Assembly: GCF_024296685.1 (NCBI RefSeq) | Contig: NZ_CP100763.1 | Span: forward strand, 558,001 to 622,000 | From: Natrinema marinum | Lineage (GTDB): Archaea; Halobacteriota; Halobacteria; Halobacteriales; Natrialbaceae | DNA: 64,000 bases | Reading direction: 5' to 3' | Shown: positions 6,946 through 22,863 of the stretch, piece after piece | Layout of the letters: every line of letters begins with the position of its first letter | Numbering within the stretch: position 1 is the stretch's first letter | The notes under the pieces: generated by a model | What the model saw: only the letters and a program-made list of their open reading frames with translations | What the model was told of the DNA's origin: nothing | The model's database searches: none | Program-made: the position numbers and the translations under genes

Positions 6946-7731
6946 ATGCGGGATTTTCACGTCCACTCGAACTACTCGGACGGCAACTTCCTCCGGTCGA
7001 TGGTCCGCGCCGCCGAGTCGGCCGGCCTCGAGGGGGTGGGGTTCGCCGATCACTGCAACGTGGCCTCGCGCGACCGCCACGAGTCGATGCGCAGCGTCTA
7101 CGGCTTCAACCTGGATCTCACCTACGAGCGCCGGCGGCAGGGGATCGAGCGGTTGCGTCGCGACTTCGAGATCGACATCTACGACGCGGTCGAGATGGAC
7201 TACGACCGGCGCGACGAGGACGCTATCGACGCCTTCCTCTCGGAAGCGGGGTTCGACTACGCGGTGGGGAGCGTCCACGACGTGGACGGCAAGAACGTGC
7301 AAATCGCGTCGCACTTCGCGGAGATGACCGACCGCGAACGCGACGCGATCGTCGACCAGTACTTCGACAAACTGGTCGCGCTCGTCGAGTCGGAACTGTT
7401 CGATATCGCGGCCCATCTCGACCTGCTCGAGCGAACGGAGCCGCTGCGAGGCCGAGCAACCGAAGAGCATTACCGGCGCGTCGCACGGTCGCTGGCGGAT
7501 TCGCGGACGGTCCCCGAGATCAACGCCGGTCGGGCGCTGACCGACGCCGAGGTCGTCCACCCCTCCGAGACGTTCCTGTCGGTCCTACGTGAGCACGACG
7601 TGGGCGTCACCGTCGGCACCGACTCGCATCACCCGACCGAGATCGGCGACCGCGCCGACTTCCTCGCCGAGTTCGTCGACGAGGTCGGTCTCAGACCGGT
7701 CGCGCCCGAAGGTCTCGGTCGAGATTTCTGA
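6946..7731 (+). CDS. PHP domain phosphoesterase (histidinol-phosphatase-like)
   Basis: 261 residues with the trinuclear-metal PHP motifs: DFHVHSNYSDG at residues 3-13 (HxH), ADHCN near 38-42, a central SVHDVDG and AHLDLLERT, and the C-terminal TDSHHPTEIG. Such proteins hydrolyse phosphate esters. In archaea this type is often annotated as HisK-like histidinol phosphatase, which would serve histidine synthesis, but no other his gene is in view. It follows aroC by 86 bp on the same strand. The ATG at 6946 gives the tightly conserved MRDFHVHS start. The enzymatic class is secure; the substrate is not. Confidence 0.87.
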   Translation: MRDFHVHSNYSDGNFLRSMVRAAESAGLEGVGFADHCNVASRDRHESMRSVYGFNLDLTYERRRQGIERLRRDFEIDIYDAVEMDYDRRDEDAIDAFLSEAGFDYAVGSVHDVDGKNVQIASHFAEMTDRERDAIVDQYFDKLVALVESELFDIAAHLDLLERTEPLRGRATEEHYRRVARSLADSRTVPEINAGRALTDAEVVHPSETFLSVLREHDVGVTVGTDSHHPTEIGDRADFLAEFVDEVGLRPVAPEGLGRDF

Positions 7732-7955
7732 ACCGATCTCTCCCGTCGCCGGAGTGAACGCAGCGAAACCGACCAATAGTTCCCGACGAATGTACCGATT
7801 GGTGGTCGATCACTCGGCCATTATAATGGTCTTTAACACATATTCTTAAGTGTACGTCCATTCTTCACGAAAGATCCTTGGTAATCTATAGCAAAGGCTT
7901 TAGGTTCGGTAGTGCGAAAATCCGCATACGGTCGGCCCATCGGCCACTGATCACT
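7732..7955. other. Intergenic region upstream of korA, AT-rich, no gene seen
   Basis: Contains a short inverted repeat (accaat at 7772-7777, attggt at 7798-7803) just after the PHP gene. After that comes an AT-rich stretch (cattataatggtctttaacacatattcttaag, about 7819-7850) and a further ctatag box near 7887. These suggest a terminator zone followed by a regulated promoter for korAB. No small open frame with haloarchaeal codon use is visible. Confidence 0.45.
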
Positions 7956-9860
7956 ATGACTAGCGACGAACTCATCTGGCGAATCGCGGGCGGTTCCGGC
8001 GACGGGATCGACTCGACGAGCCAGAACTTCGCGAAGGCGCTGATGCGCTCGGGGCTCGACGTGTTCACCCACCGTCACTACCCGTCACGGATCCGGGGCG
8101 GTCACACCTACGTCGAGATACGAGCCGCGGACCACGAGGTACAGTCACGCGGCGACGGCTACAACTTCCTGCTCGCGCTGGGCGACTCGTTCGCCCGAAA
8201 CCCGAAGGAAGAGGCCTACTACGGCAACGAGGAGCTCAAACCGCTCTCGGAGAACTTAGACGATCTCCGCGAGGGCGGGATCATCGTCTACGACGAGGGG
8301 CTCATCGACGACGAAGAGGTCGCCGATATCGATCTCGAGGCCCGTGCCGAGGAGAACGATTGGCACGTCTTCCCGATGGACCTCCGGGCGCTGGCCCGCG
8401 AACACGGCCGCGAGGTCATGCGAAACACCGCCGGCGTCGGCGTCACCGCGGCGCTGTTGGAGATGGACCTCGGGCACATCGAGGACCTGATGGAAGACGC
8501 CATGGGCGGGGACATCCTCGAGGCGAACCTCGAGATCCTCCACGAGGCCTACGACACGATCAACGAGGAGTACGACTTCGAGCACGAGCTGCGCGCGCCG
8601 GAGGGCTCTCACGACACCGAGCAGGCGCTGCTGTCGGGCTCGAACGCGATCGCCTACGGCGCGATCGACGCGGGCTGTCGGTTCATCGCCGGCTACCCGA
8701 TGACGCCGTGGACGGACGTGTTCACCATCCTCACCCAGAACTTCCCCGACATGGGTGGTATCTCCGAACAGGTCGAAGACGAGATCGCCGCCGCGGCGCT
8801 GGCACTTGGCGCGAGCCACGCCGGCGCGAAGGCCATGTCCGGCTCCTCTGGCGGCGGCTTCGCGCTGATGAGCGAACCGCTCGGGCTCGCCGAGATGACC
8901 GAGACGCCGCTGGTCCTCGTCGAGTCGATGCGCGCTGGCCCCTCGACCGGGATGCCGACGAAACCAGAACAGGGCGACCTCGAGTTCGTCCTCTACACCA
9001 GTCAGGGCGACTCCTCGCGGGTCGTCTTCGCCCCCGGCAACATCGAGGAGGCCTACGAGCAGACCCGACTCGCCTTCGAGATCGCGTGGGACTACCAGCT
9101 CCCGTCGATCATCATCTACGACCAGAAGCTCTCGGGGGAGAACACCAACGTCGACGTCGAGTTCTTCGACCGCGATCCCTCGCCGGATCTGGGTGCGACG
9201 CTGACCGAGGAGGAACTGAAAGAGGCAGCCCACGACGCGAGCGGGAAGTTCAAGCGGTTCAACTACGACGAGGCCGAGAACAACGTCTCCCCGCGGTCGC
9301 TGCCCGGTCAGCAGGGCGGGCGCTACCTCGCGACCGGCAACGAGCACTCGCCCGTCGGTCACATCAGCGAGGACCCCGACAACCGCGTCGCACAGATGAC
9401 CCGCCGCATCGAGAAACTCGAGTCCATTCGCGAGGACCTCGACGAGGAACACGCGTCGAACCAGACGTACTTCGGCGACGAGACGGCCGAATACGGCATC
9501 ATCACGTGGGGGTCCTCGCAGGGTGCCGTCGCGGAGGCCGTCGAACGGCTCAACGAGAACGGTTACCCCGTCAAGGGGCTCGGCGTCTCCGATATGATGC
9601 CGTTCCCCGAGCGAGAGGTCACCGACTTCCTCGAGAGCGTCGACGAGGCGATGGTCGTCGAGATGAACGCCACCGCGCAGTTCCGCGGGCTGATCCAGAA
9701 GGAACTGGGCCGGTTCGGCGACAAACTGACCAGCCTCCTGAAATACAACGGCAACCCCTTCGAGCCCGCCGAGATCGTCGAGGGCTACGAGGTCAACCTC
9801 GAGGGAGAGGATCGCCAACCGACCGCACAGGTGCGAATCGAACCCGCTGCAGGTGACTGA
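7956..9860 (+). CDS. korA: 2-oxoacid:ferredoxin oxidoreductase, alpha subunit (probably 2-oxoglutarate)
   Basis: 634 residues from the ATG at 7956 (TSDELIWRIAGGSGDGIDST). Fused gamma-alpha subunit of the CoA-acylating 2-oxoacid:ferredoxin oxidoreductase that replaces the 2-oxoacid dehydrogenase complex in haloarchaea. The N-terminal gamma domain (about 1-190) has GGSGDGIDSTSQNFAKAL and SRIRGGHTYVEIR. The alpha (pyrimidine-binding) domain starts around 215 with GSNAIAYGAIDAGCRFIAGYPMTPWTD. A longer frame is open upstream, but the conserved start is here. The N-terminus resembles KorA rather than PorA of haloarchaea. korB follows 3 bp later, so the two form one operon. Confidence 0.93.
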   Translation: MTSDELIWRIAGGSGDGIDSTSQNFAKALMRSGLDVFTHRHYPSRIRGGHTYVEIRAADHEVQSRGDGYNFLLALGDSFARNPKEEAYYGNEELKPLSENLDDLREGGIIVYDEGLIDDEEVADIDLEARAEENDWHVFPMDLRALAREHGREVMRNTAGVGVTAALLEMDLGHIEDLMEDAMGGDILEANLEILHEAYDTINEEYDFEHELRAPEGSHDTEQALLSGSNAIAYGAIDAGCRFIAGYPMTPWTDVFTILTQNFPDMGGISEQVEDEIAAAALALGASHAGAKAMSGSSGGGFALMSEPLGLAEMTETPLVLVESMRAGPSTGMPTKPEQGDLEFVLYTSQGDSSRVVFAPGNIEEAYEQTRLAFEIAWDYQLPSIIIYDQKLSGENTNVDVEFFDRDPSPDLGATLTEEELKEAAHDASGKFKRFNYDEAENNVSPRSLPGQQGGRYLATGNEHSPVGHISEDPDNRVAQMTRRIEKLESIREDLDEEHASNQTYFGDETAEYGIITWGSSQGAVAEAVERLNENGYPVKGLGVSDMMPFPEREVTDFLESVDEAMVVEMNATAQFRGLIQKELGRFGDKLTSLLKYNGNPFEPAEIVEGYEVNLEGEDRQPTAQVRIEPAAGD

Positions 9861-13590: not shown

Positions 13591-14727
13591 CTACTGGACG
13601 TTTATTTCGCCGATGGCGTCGAGCTGTGCCTGGTCGAGATAGACGCCCATCTCCTCTCTGGCGACGAACTCGACGGTCTGTTCCCCGCCCGCCTGATTCA
13701 AGAAGTCGGACCGGACGTAGGTGGTCAACTCGTTGGTATCGCCGCCGCTGGCGATCACGAGGTTGTGGCCGGGCAGCGGCTGGTAGTGTCGATTCTCGCC
13801 GGACGGCTGCGCGCGCCCGATCGTGTTCTCCCACTCGATCGCGTAGGTCTCGCCGGCCTCGAGTTCCAGCGTCGGGTTCGCCTGATCGGCGATGCTATCG
13901 GGCGAGACGCCGACCCACTGACCGTCCTCGAGGCGCATCCCGAAGGTGGTCGTCGGTTCGCCGGGTTCGATCTGCGGCAGCGTGACGGTCACTTCCTGAT
14001 CGCCGCCGTCGATCGTCACCGTCTCGGAGACCTGTTCGTAGCCGTACGTCCAGGCCTGGAGTTCGTACTCGCCGTTTCCGAGTAAGTCGAACCGGGCCAG
14101 CGCCTGCTGGTCTTCGGCCTGCTCGGCTGGATCCGGTCGCGCGGCGACGTTCGAGAACGAGTGCCTGTCGTCGAGGGTGACCTCGGCGCCGAGGGGGTCG
14201 CCGCCCTCGGTCTCGACGTGGACCACCAGCTCGTGGGACTCGTCGGGGCTAATCAGTTCGATCGGGCCGCGCATTTGGGCCGGATGGGGCGCACAGAAGT
14301 ACTCCGACATCTCCTCGGAGGCTGTGAACTCGAGGGCGACGGTTTCTCCCTGTTCGGACACCGTCTCCGTGGACTCGAGGATCTCGCCCTGATCGCCGAC
14401 CGCGCTGCCGCTGGTGATGTTGAAGTTGTGCGTCGCGCCGTCGCCGTTCGTCCAGATGACCCGGTGCTGTTCGCCTTCGATCAGTCGCAGCGGCGGGTTC
14501 GAGACGGCGTCGATCTCGTGGGGGGCGACCCCCATCCAGCCGCCGACGATACCGAGCAGTGAGAACGTCCGCCCCTCGCCGTCGTTCTGTACGGCCGGGA
14601 GCGTGACGTCGACCGCGTCGCGGTACGCGCCTGCGGTGCCGGCGGCCGCGGCCGTTCCTGTCAGCGCCGCCGTCCCCTTCAGCACGCCGCGACGCGAAAC
14701 GTCGCGTGAACGTTGATCGTTCGTCAT
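13591..14727 (-). CDS. Tat-exported cupredoxin with duplicated blue-copper domain
   Basis: 378 residues from the ATG at 14727. A twin-arginine signal (SRRGVLKGTAALTGTAAAAG, residues 11-30) predicts folded export. Domain 1 (about 54-160) is a plastocyanin-like fold with a complete type 1 copper site: His100 (THNF), Cys145, His148 and Met152 (CAPHPAQM). A carboxypeptidase-regulatory-like beta domain follows (165-250). Domain 3 (255-378) repeats domain 1, sharing WxGVxPxxI, NPxLxLxxGE and HNxxIASG/ITSG, but the Cys/His/Met loop is gone (YLDQAQLDAIGEI), so it should not bind copper this way. It is last in the operon with the PQQ dehydrogenase and is a natural electron acceptor for it. A longer in-frame reading upstream runs through the dehydrogenase gene and is not real. 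Confidence 0.88.
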   Translation of the reverse strand: MTNDQRSRDVSRRGVLKGTAALTGTAAAAGTAGAYRDAVDVTLPAVQNDGEGRTFSLLGIVGGWMGVAPHEIDAVSNPPLRLIEGEQHRVIWTNGDGATHNFNITSGSAVGDQGEILESTETVSEQGETVALEFTASEEMSEYFCAPHPAQMRGPIELISPDESHELVVHVETEGGDPLGAEVTLDDRHSFSNVAARPDPAEQAEDQQALARFDLLGNGEYELQAWTYGYEQVSETVTIDGGDQEVTVTLPQIEPGEPTTTFGMRLEDGQWVGVSPDSIADQANPTLELEAGETYAIEWENTIGRAQPSGENRHYQPLPGHNLVIASGGDTNELTTYVRSDFLNQAGGEQTVEFVAREEMGVYLDQAQLDAIGEINVQ

Positions 14728-14756: not shown

Positions 14757-16466
14757 TTAGCCGCTCATCGAGAACACGGCGAGCGTGTCGCCGCGCGGTC
14801 CCTGGCGGAGCCAGCCGCTGCCGCCGACCTGGACGGCGACGTACTGTCTCTCCGTGCCGGGGTCGTACCAGCTCATCGGCGAGGCGCTGATCGGCACGTC
14901 GAAGCCGTACTGCCAGAGCCGTTCGCCGGTCTCGCCGTCGTACGCGATGAGGTTCCCGTTCTGGGTCCCGTTGAACACGAGTCCCGTCGCCGTCGACAGC
15001 GAGCCGCCCCACATGTACCGTCGCTCCTCGCTCTCGATCCAGTCGCGCCAGACGCGCTCGCCCGTCGCGGGATCGACCGCTGCGAACGCGGTCATGTTCC
15101 CGTTCCACTCGTCGGGCATCTCGGAGGCCGGATCGTCCAGCCCGCCGCCCCAGTACGGATCGCCCTCGGAGAACTCCTCGTACCGCCAGTAGAGGTCCTG
15201 CGGGAAGTTCTGGTGGATGACGTACACCAACTCCGTCGCCGGGTTGTACGACGGCGGCTGCCAGTCGTTGCCCCCGGGCGCGCCGGGAACGAACGGGACC
15301 CGCTCGTCCTCGCTGATGTGAGGGATCATCCGCCACATGTTGATGTGCTGGCAGATCTCCTGGCTGCGCTCGCGGAGCCGTCCCGAGTCGGCGTCGAGCA
15401 GGAACACCCAGCCGGCCTTGTCGGAGCCGACGACGATGTCGCGCTGGCCGTCCGCGCCGGTCACGTCGCGGAGTAACACCCGCGGTGCGATGGCGTCGTA
15501 GTCCCAGACGTCGTGGGGGCTGCCCTGGTACCCCCACTGCATCTCACCGTTCTCGAGATCCATCGCGATCGTCCCGCAGGTGGGGAAGTTCGGTCCCGGT
15601 CGGACCGTCCCGTCGAAGTCCGGCCCGGGGTTCGCGACCGCCGTGTAGAGCACGTCTCGCTCCTCGTCGATCGTCGGCGTCATCCAGGTCGTGCCACAGC
15701 CGTGTTCTCGGCTCGCGCCGATCCACTCGTCCTCGGGGAGCGTCTCGCTCTGCCACTGGATCTCGCCGCTTTCGGCGTCTACGGCGGCCATGAATCCGAC
15801 GACGCCGTACTCGCCGCCGGCGCTGCCCGTGTAGATCGTCCCGTCGCGGATCACCGGCGCCCACGTCGCGGAGTAGCCCTCCTCGTGGTCGGCGGTGGAC
15901 GTGTACCAGACCTCCTCGCCGGAGTAGCGGTCCAGCGCGACGACGCCCGAGTCGAGCGTCGTCATGTACACCTTGTCGCCGTAGACGGCGGCCCCGCGGT
16001 TGTTATCGTCACAGCAGAGTTCGACCCCGATCGGCGGCGCGTAGGTGTAGCTCCAGAGGACCTCGCCCGCGCGGGGGTCGATCGCCTTGATGTGGTTCGG
16101 CCCGTTCGTCTGGTACATGATCGGCGGGTCGCCCGGTACCACGATGGGCGTTCCCTCCATGCTCGAGCCGGTCCCGACCGACAGCTCGTACTCGAGCTCG
16201 AGGTCGCCGACGTTCTCGGGCGTGATGACGTCGGCGGTGGTGGCCCGGTGCTGTTCGTAGTTCCCGCCGTACATGAGCCACGCCTCTGGGTCGTCCCCCG
16301 AGTTGCTCAGCATCTCCTGCGTGACGTCGTCGTTCTGAATGCGACCGATGTCGTGCTGTTCGGTCACCGAGTCTTCGGGGCCGCCGACCAGCGTATAGCC
16401 GTCCTCGATCTCTTTCAGTTCGATGTCGCGTGCGGCCTGTACCGCCCTGTCGTTGCGTAGTGCCAT
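14757..16466 (-). CDS. PQQ-dependent (quinoprotein) alcohol dehydrogenase, lanthanide-type site
   Basis: 569 residues, an eight-bladed quinoprotein propeller. Tryptophan-docking repeats (AxDxxxGxxxW) are visible at 128, 177, 228, 301, 463 and 508. Active-site features are the adjacent cysteines Cys151-Cys152 that form the disulfide ring over PQQ, Glu219 (GGEYGV), Asn279 (VANPGP), catalytic Asp322 and a second Asp324 (HDVWDYD). Calcium enzymes of this family have Ala or Ser at the last position; lanthanide enzymes (XoxF, PedH) have Asp. It would oxidise primary alcohols. No signal peptide is seen (starts MALRNDRAVQAARDIELKE), which is odd for a family that is periplasmic in bacteria. No C-terminal cytochrome domain. 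A strong ribosome site lies upstream, inside the end of the preceding gene. Substrate unknown. Confidence 0.9.
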   Translation of the reverse strand: MALRNDRAVQAARDIELKEIEDGYTLVGGPEDSVTEQHDIGRIQNDDVTQEMLSNSGDDPEAWLMYGGNYEQHRATTADVITPENVGDLELEYELSVGTGSSMEGTPIVVPGDPPIMYQTNGPNHIKAIDPRAGEVLWSYTYAPPIGVELCCDDNNRGAAVYGDKVYMTTLDSGVVALDRYSGEEVWYTSTADHEEGYSATWAPVIRDGTIYTGSAGGEYGVVGFMAAVDAESGEIQWQSETLPEDEWIGASREHGCGTTWMTPTIDEERDVLYTAVANPGPDFDGTVRPGPNFPTCGTIAMDLENGEMQWGYQGSPHDVWDYDAIAPRVLLRDVTGADGQRDIVVGSDKAGWVFLLDADSGRLRERSQEICQHINMWRMIPHISEDERVPFVPGAPGGNDWQPPSYNPATELVYVIHQNFPQDLYWRYEEFSEGDPYWGGGLDDPASEMPDEWNGNMTAFAAVDPATGERVWRDWIESEERRYMWGGSLSTATGLVFNGTQNGNLIAYDGETGERLWQYGFDVPISASPMSWYDPGTERQYVAVQVGGSGWLRQGPRGDTLAVFSMSG

Positions 16467-16470
16467 GCGT

Positions 16471-16479
16471 GATCACCTC
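16471..16479 (-). promoter_or_regulatory. Strong Shine-Dalgarno site of the PQQ dehydrogenase
   Basis: On the minus strand GAGGTGATC precedes the ATG at 16466 by 4 nt. It matches the anti-Shine-Dalgarno end of archaeal 16S rRNA over nine bases. The stop codon of the upstream gene (TGA, 16473-16475) lies within this site, so translation of the two genes is probably coupled. Confidence 0.75.
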
Positions 16480-17375
16480 AGTTCGCTCGGCGCGCGCACG
16501 TCGTCCGTGATGTAGAAGACGTCGTGCAGGATGTCTTCCTGGCTGACGATCTGTACCGCCGTCCCCGCGGTGAGCGCGGCCGTCAACTGTTCGTCCGTGA
16601 ACCGGCCGTCCGCGGCCAGATCGCGGGCCGCCGTCGCCGACACGAACAGCCCGCCCAGCATCGCCTTCACGTCCCTGACCGCGTCGTCGAGGATCGTGTC
16701 GGTGACCATTACCTCGTTCTGCCAGAGGTGCCTGTCGAGCCCGCGGATCCAGAGCAAGGCCCCGCCCATCGCGCGGCGGTGCAGCGGCGGGACGTTCTCG
16801 GTGTCGAACTCGACGCCCCCCGGGATCTGGTTCGATGGAACCCAGCGCGCCAGCCGTTCGTCGTTGTTCGCGACGGCGATCAGCAGCGCCGTTTTCTCCG
16901 CCTCGTCGAAGCCGACGTCGTCGAGCGCCGACGACAGCGGCTCCGCCAGAACCAGTTCGCGCGCCGTCTCCTCGATGTGGTCGGCCGTGAATCGGGGCAG
17001 GTTCCCGTCGAGGCTCTCGAAGAAGCCCACGTCGACCAGGTGGTCGTAGAGGCGCCAGCCCGGCTCAGCGACCGCCGTATACAGTCCCTGTGGCTCGTCC
17101 GGTACCCCCTCGGCTCGCACGTCCGGTAACCGTCTGATCTGCTCCGCGACGTTCTCCCGTTCCCGCTCGAGCAACTCGGGATCGAGTCGTTTCTCGAGGG
17201 CGGCCCGAATCGCCTCGCCCCGGGAGGCGAACGACGAGTCGGACCGCGGTTCGATCTGTCCCGCCAGCCGCGTCCACGTCACGTCCCCGTCTCCCGGCGT
17301 CTCGACGCCGAGTGTCGTCGCCAGATCGCGTCGTTCCGCGGCCGTCGTGTCTACTGCAGTTGATATGTGTGGCAT
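16473..17375 (-). CDS. Unassigned protein, first gene of the PQQ dehydrogenase operon
   Basis: 300 residues from the ATG at 17375; an ATG five codons earlier (17390, giving MCCGIMPHIS) is also possible. I do not recognise the family. It is soluble, mostly helical in appearance, Asp/Glu/Arg-rich, with no signal peptide, no Cys or CxxC motif beyond the alternative start, and no nucleotide-binding motif. Distinctive stretches are SRGEAIRAALEKRLDPELLERERENVAEQIRRLPDV (cut here for length), PLHRRAMGGALLWIRGLD, and a helical C-terminus ILHDVFYITDD. It ends inside the ribosome site of the PQQ dehydrogenase, so the products are likely made together. Plausible roles are a maturation or assembly factor, an accessory subunit or a membrane-docking partner. 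These are guesses from context. Confidence 0.78.
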   Translation of the reverse strand: MPHISTAVDTTAAERRDLATTLGVETPGDGDVTWTRLAGQIEPRSDSSFASRGEAIRAALEKRLDPELLERERENVAEQIRRLPDVRAEGVPDEPQGLYTAVAEPGWRLYDHLVDVGFFESLDGNLPRFTADHIEETARELVLAEPLSSALDDVGFDEAEKTALLIAVANNDERLARWVPSNQIPGGVEFDTENVPPLHRRAMGGALLWIRGLDRHLWQNEVMVTDTILDDAVRDVKAMLGGLFVSATAARDLAADGRFTDEQLTAALTAGTAVQIVSQEDILHDVFYITDDVRAPSELR

Positions 17376-17427
17376 GATACCACAACACATAAAACGCCAC
17401 CGGGACTTCTGTTAATGCTTATCAATG

Positions 17428-17641: not shown

Positions 17642-18499
17642 GTGATCGATCTCCGCGATACGCTCGCGCGACTCGAGCGGCCCGAGTACATCGGTGAGAA
17701 CCGGTGTACCCCGTGTACCGCGGTAAACGTCGTGCTCTCGTTCGCCCTCGCGGCCGCGATCGGCGCAGCAGCGTCGCCGTTCGCCGGCGCGCTCGCGCTC
17801 GGCGTCTCGCTGGTGCTGGTCCGACTCCGGGGGTATCTGATCCCGGGGACGCCGACGCTTACCCGGCGATATCTTCCCGAGCCCGTCCTCGAGCGCTTCG
17901 GGAAATCGCCCGCGAGCGCGCCGACGGTCGAGACGGTGACGCCCGCCGAACTCGCGTCCGTCCTGACCGCCGCCGATGTCGCGACCGACGGGACGGACGA
18001 GCTTCGGCTAACCCCGTCGTTTCGCGCCCGGTGGGACGACCGGCTCTCGAGCGACGGCGCGACGACTCCGGGGAGGGACGCGGTGCGGTCGGCCCTCGGC
18101 GTCGACGACGTCGATCGACTCGGCGATGCGTCGTTCGAACTCGAGGGCCGGCAGCGCGTCGGATGGGTGTCGCCCGCGGCGCTCGCGGCCGACGCCGCCG
18201 CGGCGGCCGAACTCGAGGATCGGATCGACGGCTGGGACCGCCTCGAGGCCGACGAGCGTCGCGACCTCCTGACGGGGCTGCGACTGCTACGAGATCGCTG
18301 TCCGGCCTGCAGCGGCCCGGTGGTCGCGACGACCGAGCGCCTCGAGCACTGCTGTCGGCGACCCCGAATCGCCGTCCGGGCTGCCTGCGACGCGTGCGAC
18401 CGGCCGCTGGTCGATCTCGTCGTCGCCGAGTCGATGGCGGCGACGTGGCTCGAGCTGGCGGGAGTGGGGACTGCGGACGGCTCGAGCGCTGCCGGCTGA
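17642..18499 (+). CDS. Membrane protein with Cys-pair (zinc-ribbon-like) motifs, unknown function
   Basis: 285 residues from a GTG at 17642. I do not recognise the family beyond its being haloarchaeal-looking. The start has CTPC (Cys22, Cys25) directly before two hydrophobic segments (about 27-60). The middle is soluble, with helical and acidic stretches, and the end has CPAC, a CC pair and CDAC within about 45 residues, together a possible four-Cys metal-binding module. This suggests a membrane-tethered protein whose soluble part binds zinc or an iron-sulfur cluster. It lies between the PQQ operon (divergent) and the formate-dehydrogenase-like gene (convergent, 15 bp apart). Function unknown. 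Confidence 0.72.
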   Translation: MIDLRDTLARLERPEYIGENRCTPCTAVNVVLSFALAAAIGAAASPFAGALALGVSLVLVRLRGYLIPGTPTLTRRYLPEPVLERFGKSPASAPTVETVTPAELASVLTAADVATDGTDELRLTPSFRARWDDRLSSDGATTPGRDAVRSALGVDDVDRLGDASFELEGRQRVGWVSPAALAADAAAAAELEDRIDGWDRLEADERRDLLTGLRLLRDRCPACSGPVVATTERLEHCCRRPRIAVRAACDACDRPLVDLVVAESMAATWLELAGVGTADGSSAAG

Positions 18500-18514: not shown

Positions 18515-20641
18515 TCAGTCGTCAGCGCTCGCGTCGGCGGGTTCGATCCCGACGTCGATCTCCGCGGCGGCGGCCTTGTACTCGGGGATCTTCGCTCGCT
18601 CGTCGAGGACGTGGTTCGTGAGTCGGTTGGCCGAGGCGGCCGCGAAGTGCGGCGTCGTCCAGACGACGCCCTCCTTGGTGTCCTCGGTGACGTGGGCCTC
18701 GAGCGTGATCTCGCCGCGCCGCGAGCGCAGCCGGACCGTCTCGCCGTCTTCGATGCCGTAGCGCTCGGCGTCGGCGGGGTGGACATCGACGAAGTTCTCC
18801 GGGTGCTGGCGGTTGAGCGTCGGCGACCGCGTGCTCATCGTTCCGGTGTTGTAGTGCTCCTCGAGCCGCGCGGTGGTGAGGATCAGCGGATACTCGTCAT
18901 CGGGCGTCTCGGCCGGCGGCTGGTGTTCGACGCCCTCGATGTGGCCCAGCCCGCTCTCGGTGTCGAACGACTCCTCGTAGAGGAAGGGGTCGCCCTCGTC
19001 GCCGGGCTCGTAGCAGGGCCAGTGGAGCCCCTCCTCGCCCAGCAGGTCGTAGGTCATCCCGTGGTAGCTCGGACAGACCTGCCGGAGCTCCTCGAAGACG
19101 TCTTCGGGATCGTCGAAGTCGAAACCCGAATCGAACAGCCGCCGCCCGACCTCGCTCACGATCTCGAGGTCGTGTTTCGTGTTCTCGTGGACTTTCTCGA
19201 CGCCGCGCATGCGCTGGACGCGCCGGTCGGTGTTGGTGACGGTGCCCCCGCGCTCGGCCCAGGTCGTCGCCGGCAAGAGCACGTCGGCGAACTCGGCGGT
19301 CTCGGTCGGGAAGATATCCTGCACGACCACGAACTCTAACTCCGCGAGCCGCTCGGCGACGCTGTTGGCGTCGGGTTCGCTCATCACGGGGTTCTCGCCC
19401 ATGACGTACAGCCCCTTGATCGAGTCGCCGGCCTCGTAGGAGATCTCGACGTTCGTCAGGCCCGGCTCGTCGGGGATTTCGAAGCCCCAGACCTCCTCGA
19501 CCGATTCGCGGGCCTCGTCGTCGTCGACCAGCTGGTAGCCCGGCAGGACGTTCGGCATCGCGCCGACGTCACAGGTCCCCTGAACGTTGTTCTGCCCGCG
19601 CAGCGGGTTGACCCCGGTTCCGGGCCGCCCGAGGTTGCCCGTGATCAGCGCCAGATTGATCTCGTTTTGCACGTTGTCGACGCCGCAGGCGTGCTGGCTC
19701 ATTCCCATCCCGGTGAAGATGGCGGCGTTGTCCGCCGTGGCGTACTTTTCGGCGGCCAACTCGATCGCCTCGAGCGCGACGCCACACTCCTCGGCCGCCG
19801 CTTCCGTATCGAAGTCCTCGAGCGTCTCCTTCAGGTCCTCGAAGCCCTCGGTGCGTTCCGCGACGAACTCTTCGTCGACCCAGCCGTCTTCGGGGTTCTC
19901 CTCGTGGTGCTCGAGAATCGTCTTCAGGACGATATTGAGCAGCGGGATGTCGGTCCCGGGGTTCAACTGGAGGTGCTGGTGGCGCTCGGTGTCGTCGATC
20001 TGGAACGACCGGGTCGTCTTGTTCGCATGCGGGTCGACCTGAACGACGGTCGCGCCCTCGAGGACGGCCTGCCGGAAGTACTGGCTGTTGGCGATCGGGT
20101 GCTGTTCGCCCGGATTCGCCCCCTGGATCCAGAAGAGGTCGGCCTCCTCGCGGAGGTCGCGCATGCTGTTGGTCATCGCCCCCGCACCGAGGCTGGTCCG
20201 CAGCGCCCAGACGGTCGAGGCGTGGCACATCCGCGTGCAGTTGTCGACGTTGTTGGTGCCGTACCGGCGGGCCAGCTTCTGGAGGAGGTAGTTCTCCTCG
20301 TTCATCGTCTTCGAAGAGCCGAAAAAGCCCATCGCGTCCGGGCCGTACGCCTCGCGGATGCGCTCTAGTTCGCCGACGACGTACTCGTAGGCCTCCTCCC
20401 AGGTGGCCTCGCGGAACTCACCGTCCTCCCTGATCTGGGGCTCGGTGAGCCGGTCCTCGTGGTCGACGACCTCCGTCGCCGCGCCGCCTTTGATGCAGAT
20501 GCGGCCCTCGTTGACCGGCGCGTCGCCCCACGGCATGAATCGGACATCGCCCGGTTCCTCGCCCTGCTGTACCTTGATGCCGCAGCCGACGCCGCAGTAC
20601 GGACAGATCGTCTTGACTGGCTCTTGCTGGTCACTTGACAT
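18515..20641 (-). CDS. fdhF: Formate dehydrogenase-like molybdopterin oxidoreductase, catalytic subunit
   Basis: 708 residues, close to the single-subunit FdhF/FdhA length. N-terminal 4Fe-4S ligands are Cys13, Cys16, Cys20 and Cys49 (CPYCGVGC...ICIKG). The Mo/W ligand position is Cys139 followed by His140 in CTRMCHAS, so this is the cysteine form and not selenocysteine. Conserved NPLRGQNNVQG, the TMSTRSPTLN stretch and the C-terminal molydopterin-dinucleotide-binding domain (about 590-700) are present. No beta/gamma subunit or FdhD is adjacent, and mobA and yqeC lie 1-2 kb away. It would oxidise formate and pass electrons to an unlinked partner, but related enzymes reduce other substrates, so formate specificity is likely but not certain. 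No signal peptide; cytoplasmic. Confidence 0.88.
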   Translation of the reverse strand: MSSDQQEPVKTICPYCGVGCGIKVQQGEEPGDVRFMPWGDAPVNEGRICIKGGAATEVVDHEDRLTEPQIREDGEFREATWEEAYEYVVGELERIREAYGPDAMGFFGSSKTMNEENYLLQKLARRYGTNNVDNCTRMCHASTVWALRTSLGAGAMTNSMRDLREEADLFWIQGANPGEQHPIANSQYFRQAVLEGATVVQVDPHANKTTRSFQIDDTERHQHLQLNPGTDIPLLNIVLKTILEHHEENPEDGWVDEEFVAERTEGFEDLKETLEDFDTEAAAEECGVALEAIELAAEKYATADNAAIFTGMGMSQHACGVDNVQNEINLALITGNLGRPGTGVNPLRGQNNVQGTCDVGAMPNVLPGYQLVDDDEARESVEEVWGFEIPDEPGLTNVEISYEAGDSIKGLYVMGENPVMSEPDANSVAERLAELEFVVVQDIFPTETAEFADVLLPATTWAERGGTVTNTDRRVQRMRGVEKVHENTKHDLEIVSEVGRRLFDSGFDFDDPEDVFEELRQVCPSYHGMTYDLLGEEGLHWPCYEPGDEGDPFLYEESFDTESGLGHIEGVEHQPPAETPDDEYPLILTTARLEEHYNTGTMSTRSPTLNRQHPENFVDVHPADAERYGIEDGETVRLRSRRGEITLEAHVTEDTKEGVVWTTPHFAAASANRLTNHVLDERAKIPEYKAAAAEIDVGIEPADASADD

Positions 20642-22116: not shown

Positions 22117-22863
22117 CTACCCCTCGCGGATGGCGACGACCGGTTCGTCGTCGATCATCCGCGCCAGCACGACGCGCTCGACGGGAGGCGCTCGCTCGAG
22201 CAGTTCCATCGCGATCTCCTCGGCGATGGCCCGCCGCTCGGCGTCGTCGACCTTGTTGAGCAGTGGGATGACCGTCGCGCCGTCTGGCACCCCCTTCAGC
22301 CCGCCGCGGTCGCTCGCGAGCACGCGAGCCACGTCGACGGCTCGGATCGCGTCGCCCCGATCGCGTCCGGTGATCGCTGCCACCCGCTCCGGCCGGTGGA
22401 CGTGCTCGCTCGAGAGGGGGTTGCCGACGACTTCGACGCTCGCGATCGGGATCACCGTGTCGGCGCTTTCCGGAAGCTGGGGCTCGCGGTCGTTCGGGGC
22501 CTTGAACTCCCGCGTCCGCGCGCCGTCGGCTTTGACGAGCACGAGATCCGCGGCGTCGGCCGCCGCGAGGCCGTCGATTACGTCGGGGTCGTAGCCCAGA
22601 TACCGATCCCCTTCGCGCTCCGGGACGACGCCGACGGGCCACGCGTCCGTGCGCTCACAGGCCGCGACCGGGTCGTCGGTCACGGTCACCGATTCGACCT
22701 CCCGATCGAAGATGGGAATTCGGACCGTCGCCGTCACGACCGCCCGTCGGGAGCGCTCGGCGGCGGCGCGCGCGGCCAGTGCGTACAGTGTGGTCTTCTT
22801 GCCGCCCGCACCGACGACGGCGACGACGCCCGAGTCGGCCCGGAGCGCCTCGAGGACATCCAT
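22117..22863 (-). CDS. yqeC: YqeC-like selenium-dependent molybdenum hydroxylase accessory protein
   Basis: 248 residues. P-loop-like start VVAVVGAGGKKTTLYALA, then ATVRIPIFDREVESV, LVLVKADGARTREFKAPNDREPQLP (the YqeC signature ADGARxRxxKAPxxxEPxxP) and VIPIASVEVVGNPLSSEHVHRPE. These match the YqeC family associated in bacteria and some haloarchaea with labile-selenium molybdenum hydroxylases, next to SelD, YqeB and XdhC genes. No selD or xanthine-dehydrogenase genes are in the window. It converges on mobA, consistent with a Mo-cofactor role. The exact reaction is not known. Confidence 0.85.
   Translation of the reverse strand: MDVLEALRADSGVVAVVGAGGKKTTLYALAARAAAERSRRAVVTATVRIPIFDREVESVTVTDDPVAACERTDAWPVGVVPEREGDRYLGYDPDVIDGLAAADAADLVLVKADGARTREFKAPNDREPQLPESADTVIPIASVEVVGNPLSSEHVHRPERVAAITGRDRGDAIRAVDVARVLASDRGGLKGVPDGATVIPLLNKVDDAERRAIAEEIAMELLERAPPVERVVLARMIDDEPVVAIREG

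Follow-up and report, generated by a model that had tools for sequence, protein, structure and literature searches.

The window analysed here, 64,000 nucleotides of Natrinema marinum DNA, carries on its minus strand (14757..16466) a gene for a 569-residue enzyme of the PQQ alcohol-dehydrogenase type that has no signal peptide. The locus raises the question of whether a haloarchaeal quinoprotein possesses a lanthanide-type metal site and, if it does, where in the cell and with which partners such an enzyme would operate.

Fold, metal site and cofactor supply

To place the enzyme, we compared it with family models and known structures. It scores 166.5 bits against Pfam PF01011 (PQQ; cut-off 26.7) and 370.4 bits against NCBIfam TIGR03075 (methanol/ethanol PQQ dehydrogenase), below the cut-off of 480.05; its second-best NCBIfam model is TIGR04528 (acido-empty-quinoprotein group A), at 281.2 bits far under a cut-off of 650. 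The top PDB sequence matches found with phmmer were the PedH entries 6zcv (E 1.2e-61) and 6zcw (E 2.7e-61). An AlphaFold model (mean pLDDT 89) likewise has PedH as its closest fold (6zcw: Z 46.2, rmsd 1.9 Å, 505 residues aligned; also 6zcv), followed by XoxF 6dam (Z 44.3) and ExaA 1flg (Z 44.1) with a small gap between them, so that by its predicted structure the enzyme is an eight-bladed propeller with the PQQ alcohol-dehydrogenase fold. PedH/ExaF, a lanthanide ethanol dehydrogenase and the best match in both sequence and fold, shares the four metal-site residues and the Cys-Cys pair with the enzyme, but the two are ~30% identical, and the haloarchaeal protein differs in lacking a signal peptide, in being paired with an upstream protein (up305) and a cupredoxin, and in belonging to a genome in which PQQ synthesis genes were not found. 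XoxF has the WDYD motif and the fold (Z 42-44) in common with it. In a Methylocella record, genes for a substrate-binding protein and a c-type cytochrome come after that for the PQQ alcohol dehydrogenase; neither occurs at the window's locus. The N. marinum genome also encodes a second PQQ alcohol dehydrogenase, a ~41% identical paralogue (7605-9599 of locus record L041; C1:1327658-1329592) that is preceded by a Tat-type up305 and followed by genes of the Na+/Ca2+ exchanger family.

An earlier note on this DNA had proposed a lanthanide-type active site from C151-C152, E219, N279 and W321-D322-Y-D324, and each of these residues lies at that number on the minus-strand frame (Cys pair, 16011-16016; E219, within GGE219, 15810-15812; N279, 15630-15632; D322, 15501-15503; D324, 15495-15497). 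The alignment to known structures that the note called for places the metal residues on the ligands of PedH and XoxF: in the phmmer PDB alignments E219, N279, D322 and D324 fall on PedH's E, N and WDFD. At the WDYD position XoxF 6dam also reads WDYD, while 1flg reads WDFS and 1kb0 WDYT, the latter two being calcium enzymes. Across 78 aligned rows of haloarchaeal homologues, a few of which are the same gene fetched twice, R157, W261, N279, D322, D324 and K350 are invariant; E219 is kept in 73 rows and the Cys pair in 60. This invariance indicates that the motif residues are not there by chance and that the additional Asp is a trait of the whole haloarchaeal family rather than of one protein. 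The PedH metal ligands are tabulated as Glu199, Asn281, Asp323 and Asp325 (table in PMC11845868). Alignment, fold and conservation together give good support to a metal site of the PedH/XoxF type in this haloarchaeal PQQ alcohol dehydrogenase, the part of the earlier proposal that stands; actual use of a lanthanide, as read from these residues, is plausible but unproven.

Archaeal quinoproteins with a DYD motif are already on record from heterotrophic marine Thaumarchaeota (PMC7300363; review PMC11845868). In PMC7300363, DYD occurs in 4 of 21 families; these proteins differ from the enzyme in that all lack Cys-Cys and that 15 of the 21 have signal peptides. Our search of the open-access literature found no recognised report of lanthanide use, or of the up305-enzyme pair, in haloarchaea.

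How far the second Asp specifies the metal deserves caution. PMC11996626 treats D-x-D as a marker of lanthanide binding and describes the second Asp as required, yet notes the same D-x-D in most m-GDH sequences, the biochemically characterised one included, and on that ground calls m-GDH only facultatively Ln-dependent. The enzyme might accordingly depend on calcium, with D324 as a remnant or a secondary ligand, and we regard this as quite possible, if somewhat doubtful. Genes of the Na+/Ca2+-exchanger family (PF01699) lie near homologues at 14 of 63 loci, the own-genome paralogue included, and the Asn motif of the enzyme, NPGP, has Pro at +3 as do MxaF (PMC11845868) and PedH. The complete conservation of D324 speaks against calcium, as does the presence of an equivalent Asp in the structure-proven lanthanide enzymes covered there (PMC11845868).

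A related doubt concerns the cofactor itself. A PqqC profile found no match over cut-off in any of 146 genomes of the order. As a control, the same model was run on six records or genomes and exceeded its cut-off in three (S. meliloti pSymB, a Methylocella plasmid and Ktedonosporobacter), but not in the N. marinum genome. PqqB was over cut-off in 0 of 31, matches to PqqE in the own genome were weak, sub-cut-off radical SAM hits, and no PQQ synthesis cluster adjoins the enzyme at the loci examined. Because PQQ synthesis genes were not found, PQQ would need to be taken up. Enzymes of the PedH and XoxF type usually occur with PQQ synthesis in the same genome, though not strictly so. The missing PqqC, together with TIGR04528 as the second-best model, could point to an "empty" quinoprotein that retains the fold and does not bind PQQ. 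This we consider improbable: R157, W261, N279, D322 and K350, which we take from MxaF and XoxF to line the PQQ pocket, are invariant, which would be difficult to account for if no cofactor were bound and sets the enzyme apart from the TIGR04528 group. Moreover, E. coli Gcd provides a precedent for an apo-quinoprotein filled with PQQ from outside.

A possible route of uptake comes from the neighbourhood of related enzymes. Ten genomes picked for having the enzyme encode 26 strong NMT1-family substrate-binding proteins (E < 1e-20). Of these, 21 are encoded no more than 10 kb from an enzyme gene, compared with 0.24 expected by position, and 14 of 19 enzyme loci have such a neighbour; since the loci are related, a binomial test overstates the significance of this clustering. 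The window's locus has no NMT1-family protein within 10 kb, and the own-genome paralogue has one nearby. The cargo of these NMT1-type importers may be PQQ, the substrate or the product.

An obligate upstream partner

Directly upstream of the enzyme and on the same strand lies up305 (16473..17390, minus strand), a 305-residue all-helical protein that belongs to no Pfam or NCBIfam family. A member of this family was present in 58 of 58 enzyme loci examined, on the same strand and directly upstream in every case except locus L072, where it is divergently oriented and weak (28%). These neighbourhood counts omit loci L001-L040, which have short flanks and mostly repeat later loci, and L058 (29%, Ktedonosporobacter), and several of the 58-63 loci used are the same place recorded twice (e.g., L057/L093, L062/L115 and L063/L116). 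We also searched 392 haloarchaeal genomes, which makes the result independent of the choice of loci. A profile detected up305 in 75 genomes and the enzyme was detected in 74 (E <= 1e-40), with all 74 shared; the extra up305 genome (G249) holds a 54-residue fragment only. The enzyme follows directly on the same strand at 114 of 120 up305 places (median 33 bases to the match), the six remaining places falling in G376 (two), G317, G133, G130 and G249. Conversely, 3 of 117 merged enzyme places have no paired up305 (one in G089, two in G133), and both assemblies are fragmented. When two up305 members were compared by tblastn with 72,556 plasmid records, the eight that matched were all haloarchaeal. 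In haloarchaea, up305 is therefore an obligate partner of the enzyme. We looked for a bacterial counterpart beside the Paraburkholderia homologue (35.6% identity, the best bacterial enzyme row among the plasmid matches listed) and found that the preceding annotated gene encodes an unrelated propeller-like protein; the N-terminus of that homologue reads as its own signal peptide.

The identity of up305 is less easily read. Eight members searched against Pfam at E <= 5 returned only weak TAT_signal matches and one chance-level viral match. The predicted model is all-helical (pLDDT 92), Foldseek found nothing at E <= 0.001 in PDB or BFVD, and the best VIA match (Z 8.1) is a designed bundle, a resemblance of little weight where helical proteins are concerned. 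We considered a PqqC- or TenA-like enzyme and dropped the idea, as it had no family or fold match in its support.

Three further genes of the window deserve mention. A 285-residue protein without a family assignment (17642..18499, plus strand), which has a membrane-like stretch and an ENRCTPCT motif, is also encoded close to the enzyme at 19 of 58 loci. The gene for a formate dehydrogenase alpha subunit (18515..20641, minus strand; TIGR01591 over cut-off) recurs, by neighbour clustering, in 8 of 58 loci, in several families and two arrangements; this neighbour hints at a C1 link, and its tie to the enzyme is uncertain. A YqeC-type selenium cofactor biosynthesis protein (22117-22863; TIGR03172, 180 bits, cut-off 73) lies near a molybdopterin oxidoreductase.

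Export arrangement and probable electron acceptor

PedH and XoxF are periplasmic, and we asked whether a signal peptide had been overlooked on the haloarchaeal enzyme. In the window, an in-frame stop lies two codons upstream of the ATG, which rules out a wrong start that conceals a signal peptide. The open frame upstream of the start extends for at most two codons in 44 of 76 homologues and at most five in 49; in 17 it exceeds 30 codons, and in those inspected this stretch seems to be the preceding gene read out of frame. The N-termini are hydrophilic, and no Tat motif was found on any of the 76 enzymes by our own simplified rule (RR, a hydrophobic residue at +4 and a long uncharged run; L074, which has no start codon, was left out of the set).

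The motif appears instead on the partner. Deep-branch up305 proteins start with a twin-arginine motif, RRxFLK, and many outside the window's clade read DRRxFLKxLG followed by an uncharged run of small residues. Scanning the first RR only, 22 of 61 up305 pass the Tat rule, nine strictly and 13 with an uncharged run of only 12 residues, on the short side for Tat. When every RR position is tested, the deep-branch proteins pass except for one 5-row clade. Pfam TAT_signal matched 5 of 8 members, every score being below cut-off. On the enzyme tree (a quick method with SH-aLRT support; the changes were counted without L072, and L091 was entered as Tat-positive from the first-RR scan), two changes suffice to explain this distribution: the motif was lost once in the 30-row clade to which the window belongs (support 99) and once in the 5-row clade. 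The window's own up305 belongs with the losses. Its N-terminus, AERRDLATTLGVETPGDG, carries a decayed motif with only ERRDLATTLGVETPGDG and no hydrophobic run, leaving no usable Tat motif, and an escort role at this locus is thus suggested by its relatives.

A precedent for such an escort is bacterial FAD-glucose dehydrogenase, the small subunit of which is a Tat "hitch-hiker" needed for export of the catalytic subunit (PMC9727119). Deep-branch up305 resembles that subunit in bearing a Tat motif next to a catalytic protein that bears none, a likeness that the window's up305 does not share. The systems differ in that the FAD enzyme has another catalytic fold and up305 has no family match or convincing fold match; the FAD-GDH small subunit is not among the fold-library matches listed for up305, which excludes nothing. 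Against an escort function stand the lack of any known escort fold matching up305 and the reliance of the Tat calls on a simplified rule of our own.

Downstream of the enzyme lies a gene for a 378-residue cupredoxin (13591..14727, minus strand) with a Tat signal (SRRGVLKG...), a type-1 copper motif (CAPHPAQM) and a match to PF00127 (E 1.4e-10, scanned without the first 19 residues). A cupredoxin bearing both a Tat signal and the copper motif directly follows 23 of 61 enzyme genes and all 14 in the window's clade. At two loci (L078 and L092), the enzyme has a cupredoxin domain (CTVHPNSM/CTIHPNSM) fused at its N-terminus and no signal, and the adjoining up305 carries RRELLAAL or RREFLKAL. A signal-less cupredoxin-enzyme fusion next to a Tat-tagged up305 is the best evidence both for a copper acceptor and for piggy-back export. 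The cupredoxin is the probable electron acceptor of the enzyme. Because up305 in the window's lineage has lost its Tat motif, any export that persists there must rely on the Tat-tagged cupredoxin. The missing signal peptide, the obligate partner and the Tat cupredoxin were all absent from the earlier note.

The export model is challenged by 16 of 61 enzyme genes that lack a Tat up305 as well as a Tat cupredoxin and that form one clade, sister to the window's. (L069, in another clade, was also scored without both, yet a Tat-type gene with an unrecognised copper motif directly follows it.) A 2Fe-2S ferredoxin gene is found at the locus for 14 of these 16 genes, compared with 0 of 45 others. In examples from Halomarina and Natrinema salinisoli plasmids, genes for an AAA ATPase, an aldehyde ferredoxin oxidoreductase, ABC transporters and Na+/Ca2+ exchanger-family proteins lie nearby; in records L115, L116 and L103 of this lineage a CDC48-type AAA ATPase lies upstream of each up305-enzyme pair. 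An AAA ATPase beside the pair recalls MoxR of methanol dehydrogenase clusters. The loss of both Tat-tagged partners and the presence of ferredoxin suggest a cytoplasmic quinoprotein, that is, a relocation of the enzyme in the sister lineage.

One may ask whether the window's lineage moved with it. In such a scheme both lineages would be cytoplasmic, the loss of the Tat motif from up305 would mark the relocation, and up305 would be a chaperone or subunit. The scheme draws on the 30-row clade without a signal on enzyme or up305, on the ferredoxin pattern of the sister lineage and its want of a cupredoxin, and on the cytoplasmic kinds of protein (AAA ATPase, aldehyde ferredoxin oxidoreductase) encoded nearby in the plasmid records named above. 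We nevertheless consider it unlikely, though to be taken seriously. The Tat-tagged cupredoxin is retained directly downstream at every window-clade locus, the ferredoxin pattern amounts to one evolutionary event rather than many, and, judged by redox potentials, the transfer of electrons from PQQ to ferredoxin looks energetically uphill. Because of these potentials, the ferredoxin may instead serve the aldehyde oxidoreductase, and as an acceptor for the sister-lineage enzyme it is a lead only.

The proposed unit and its implications

We favor, with a probability of about 0.45, export of a quinoprotein with a PQQ- and lanthanide-type site that was ancestrally escorted by a Tat-bearing up305 and that passes electrons to a cupredoxin. 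In this model the propeller would bind PQQ and a metal through E219, N279, D322 and D324, the PQQ being scavenged rather than made. The ancestral enzyme would have been folded and loaded in the cytoplasm and then carried out by up305; it would oxidise an alcohol and hand the electrons to the adjoining type-1 copper protein. Besides the sister lineage and the doubts about up305 given above, the TIGR03075 score under cut-off and the PQQ synthesis genes that were not found count against the model. A wider scheme, in which haloarchaea evolved a lanthanide quinoprotein system of their own, the signal-less enzyme being loaded inside the cell with PQQ and metal that are scavenged and leaving it in folded form with a cupredoxin and with up305 as a new Tat escort family, while one lineage turned cytoplasmic with ferredoxin and aldehyde oxidoreductase and is fed by NMT1-type ABC importers (maybe for PQQ) and cation exchangers (maybe for metal), is speculative and on balance rather unlikely.

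What is new at this locus lies mainly in up305 as an obligate partner and in an export arrangement that shifts between lineages, both more surprising than the metal site. Tat-positive and Tat-negative up305-enzyme pairs occur in sequenced Natrinema, Natrialba, Natronococcus and Halomarina, providing for a clean test. If the model is true, a widespread and unannotated protein family would gain a function, and lanthanide enzymology would reach the halophilic archaea by another route of delivery, with PQQ and metal entering a folded enzyme in the cytoplasm.
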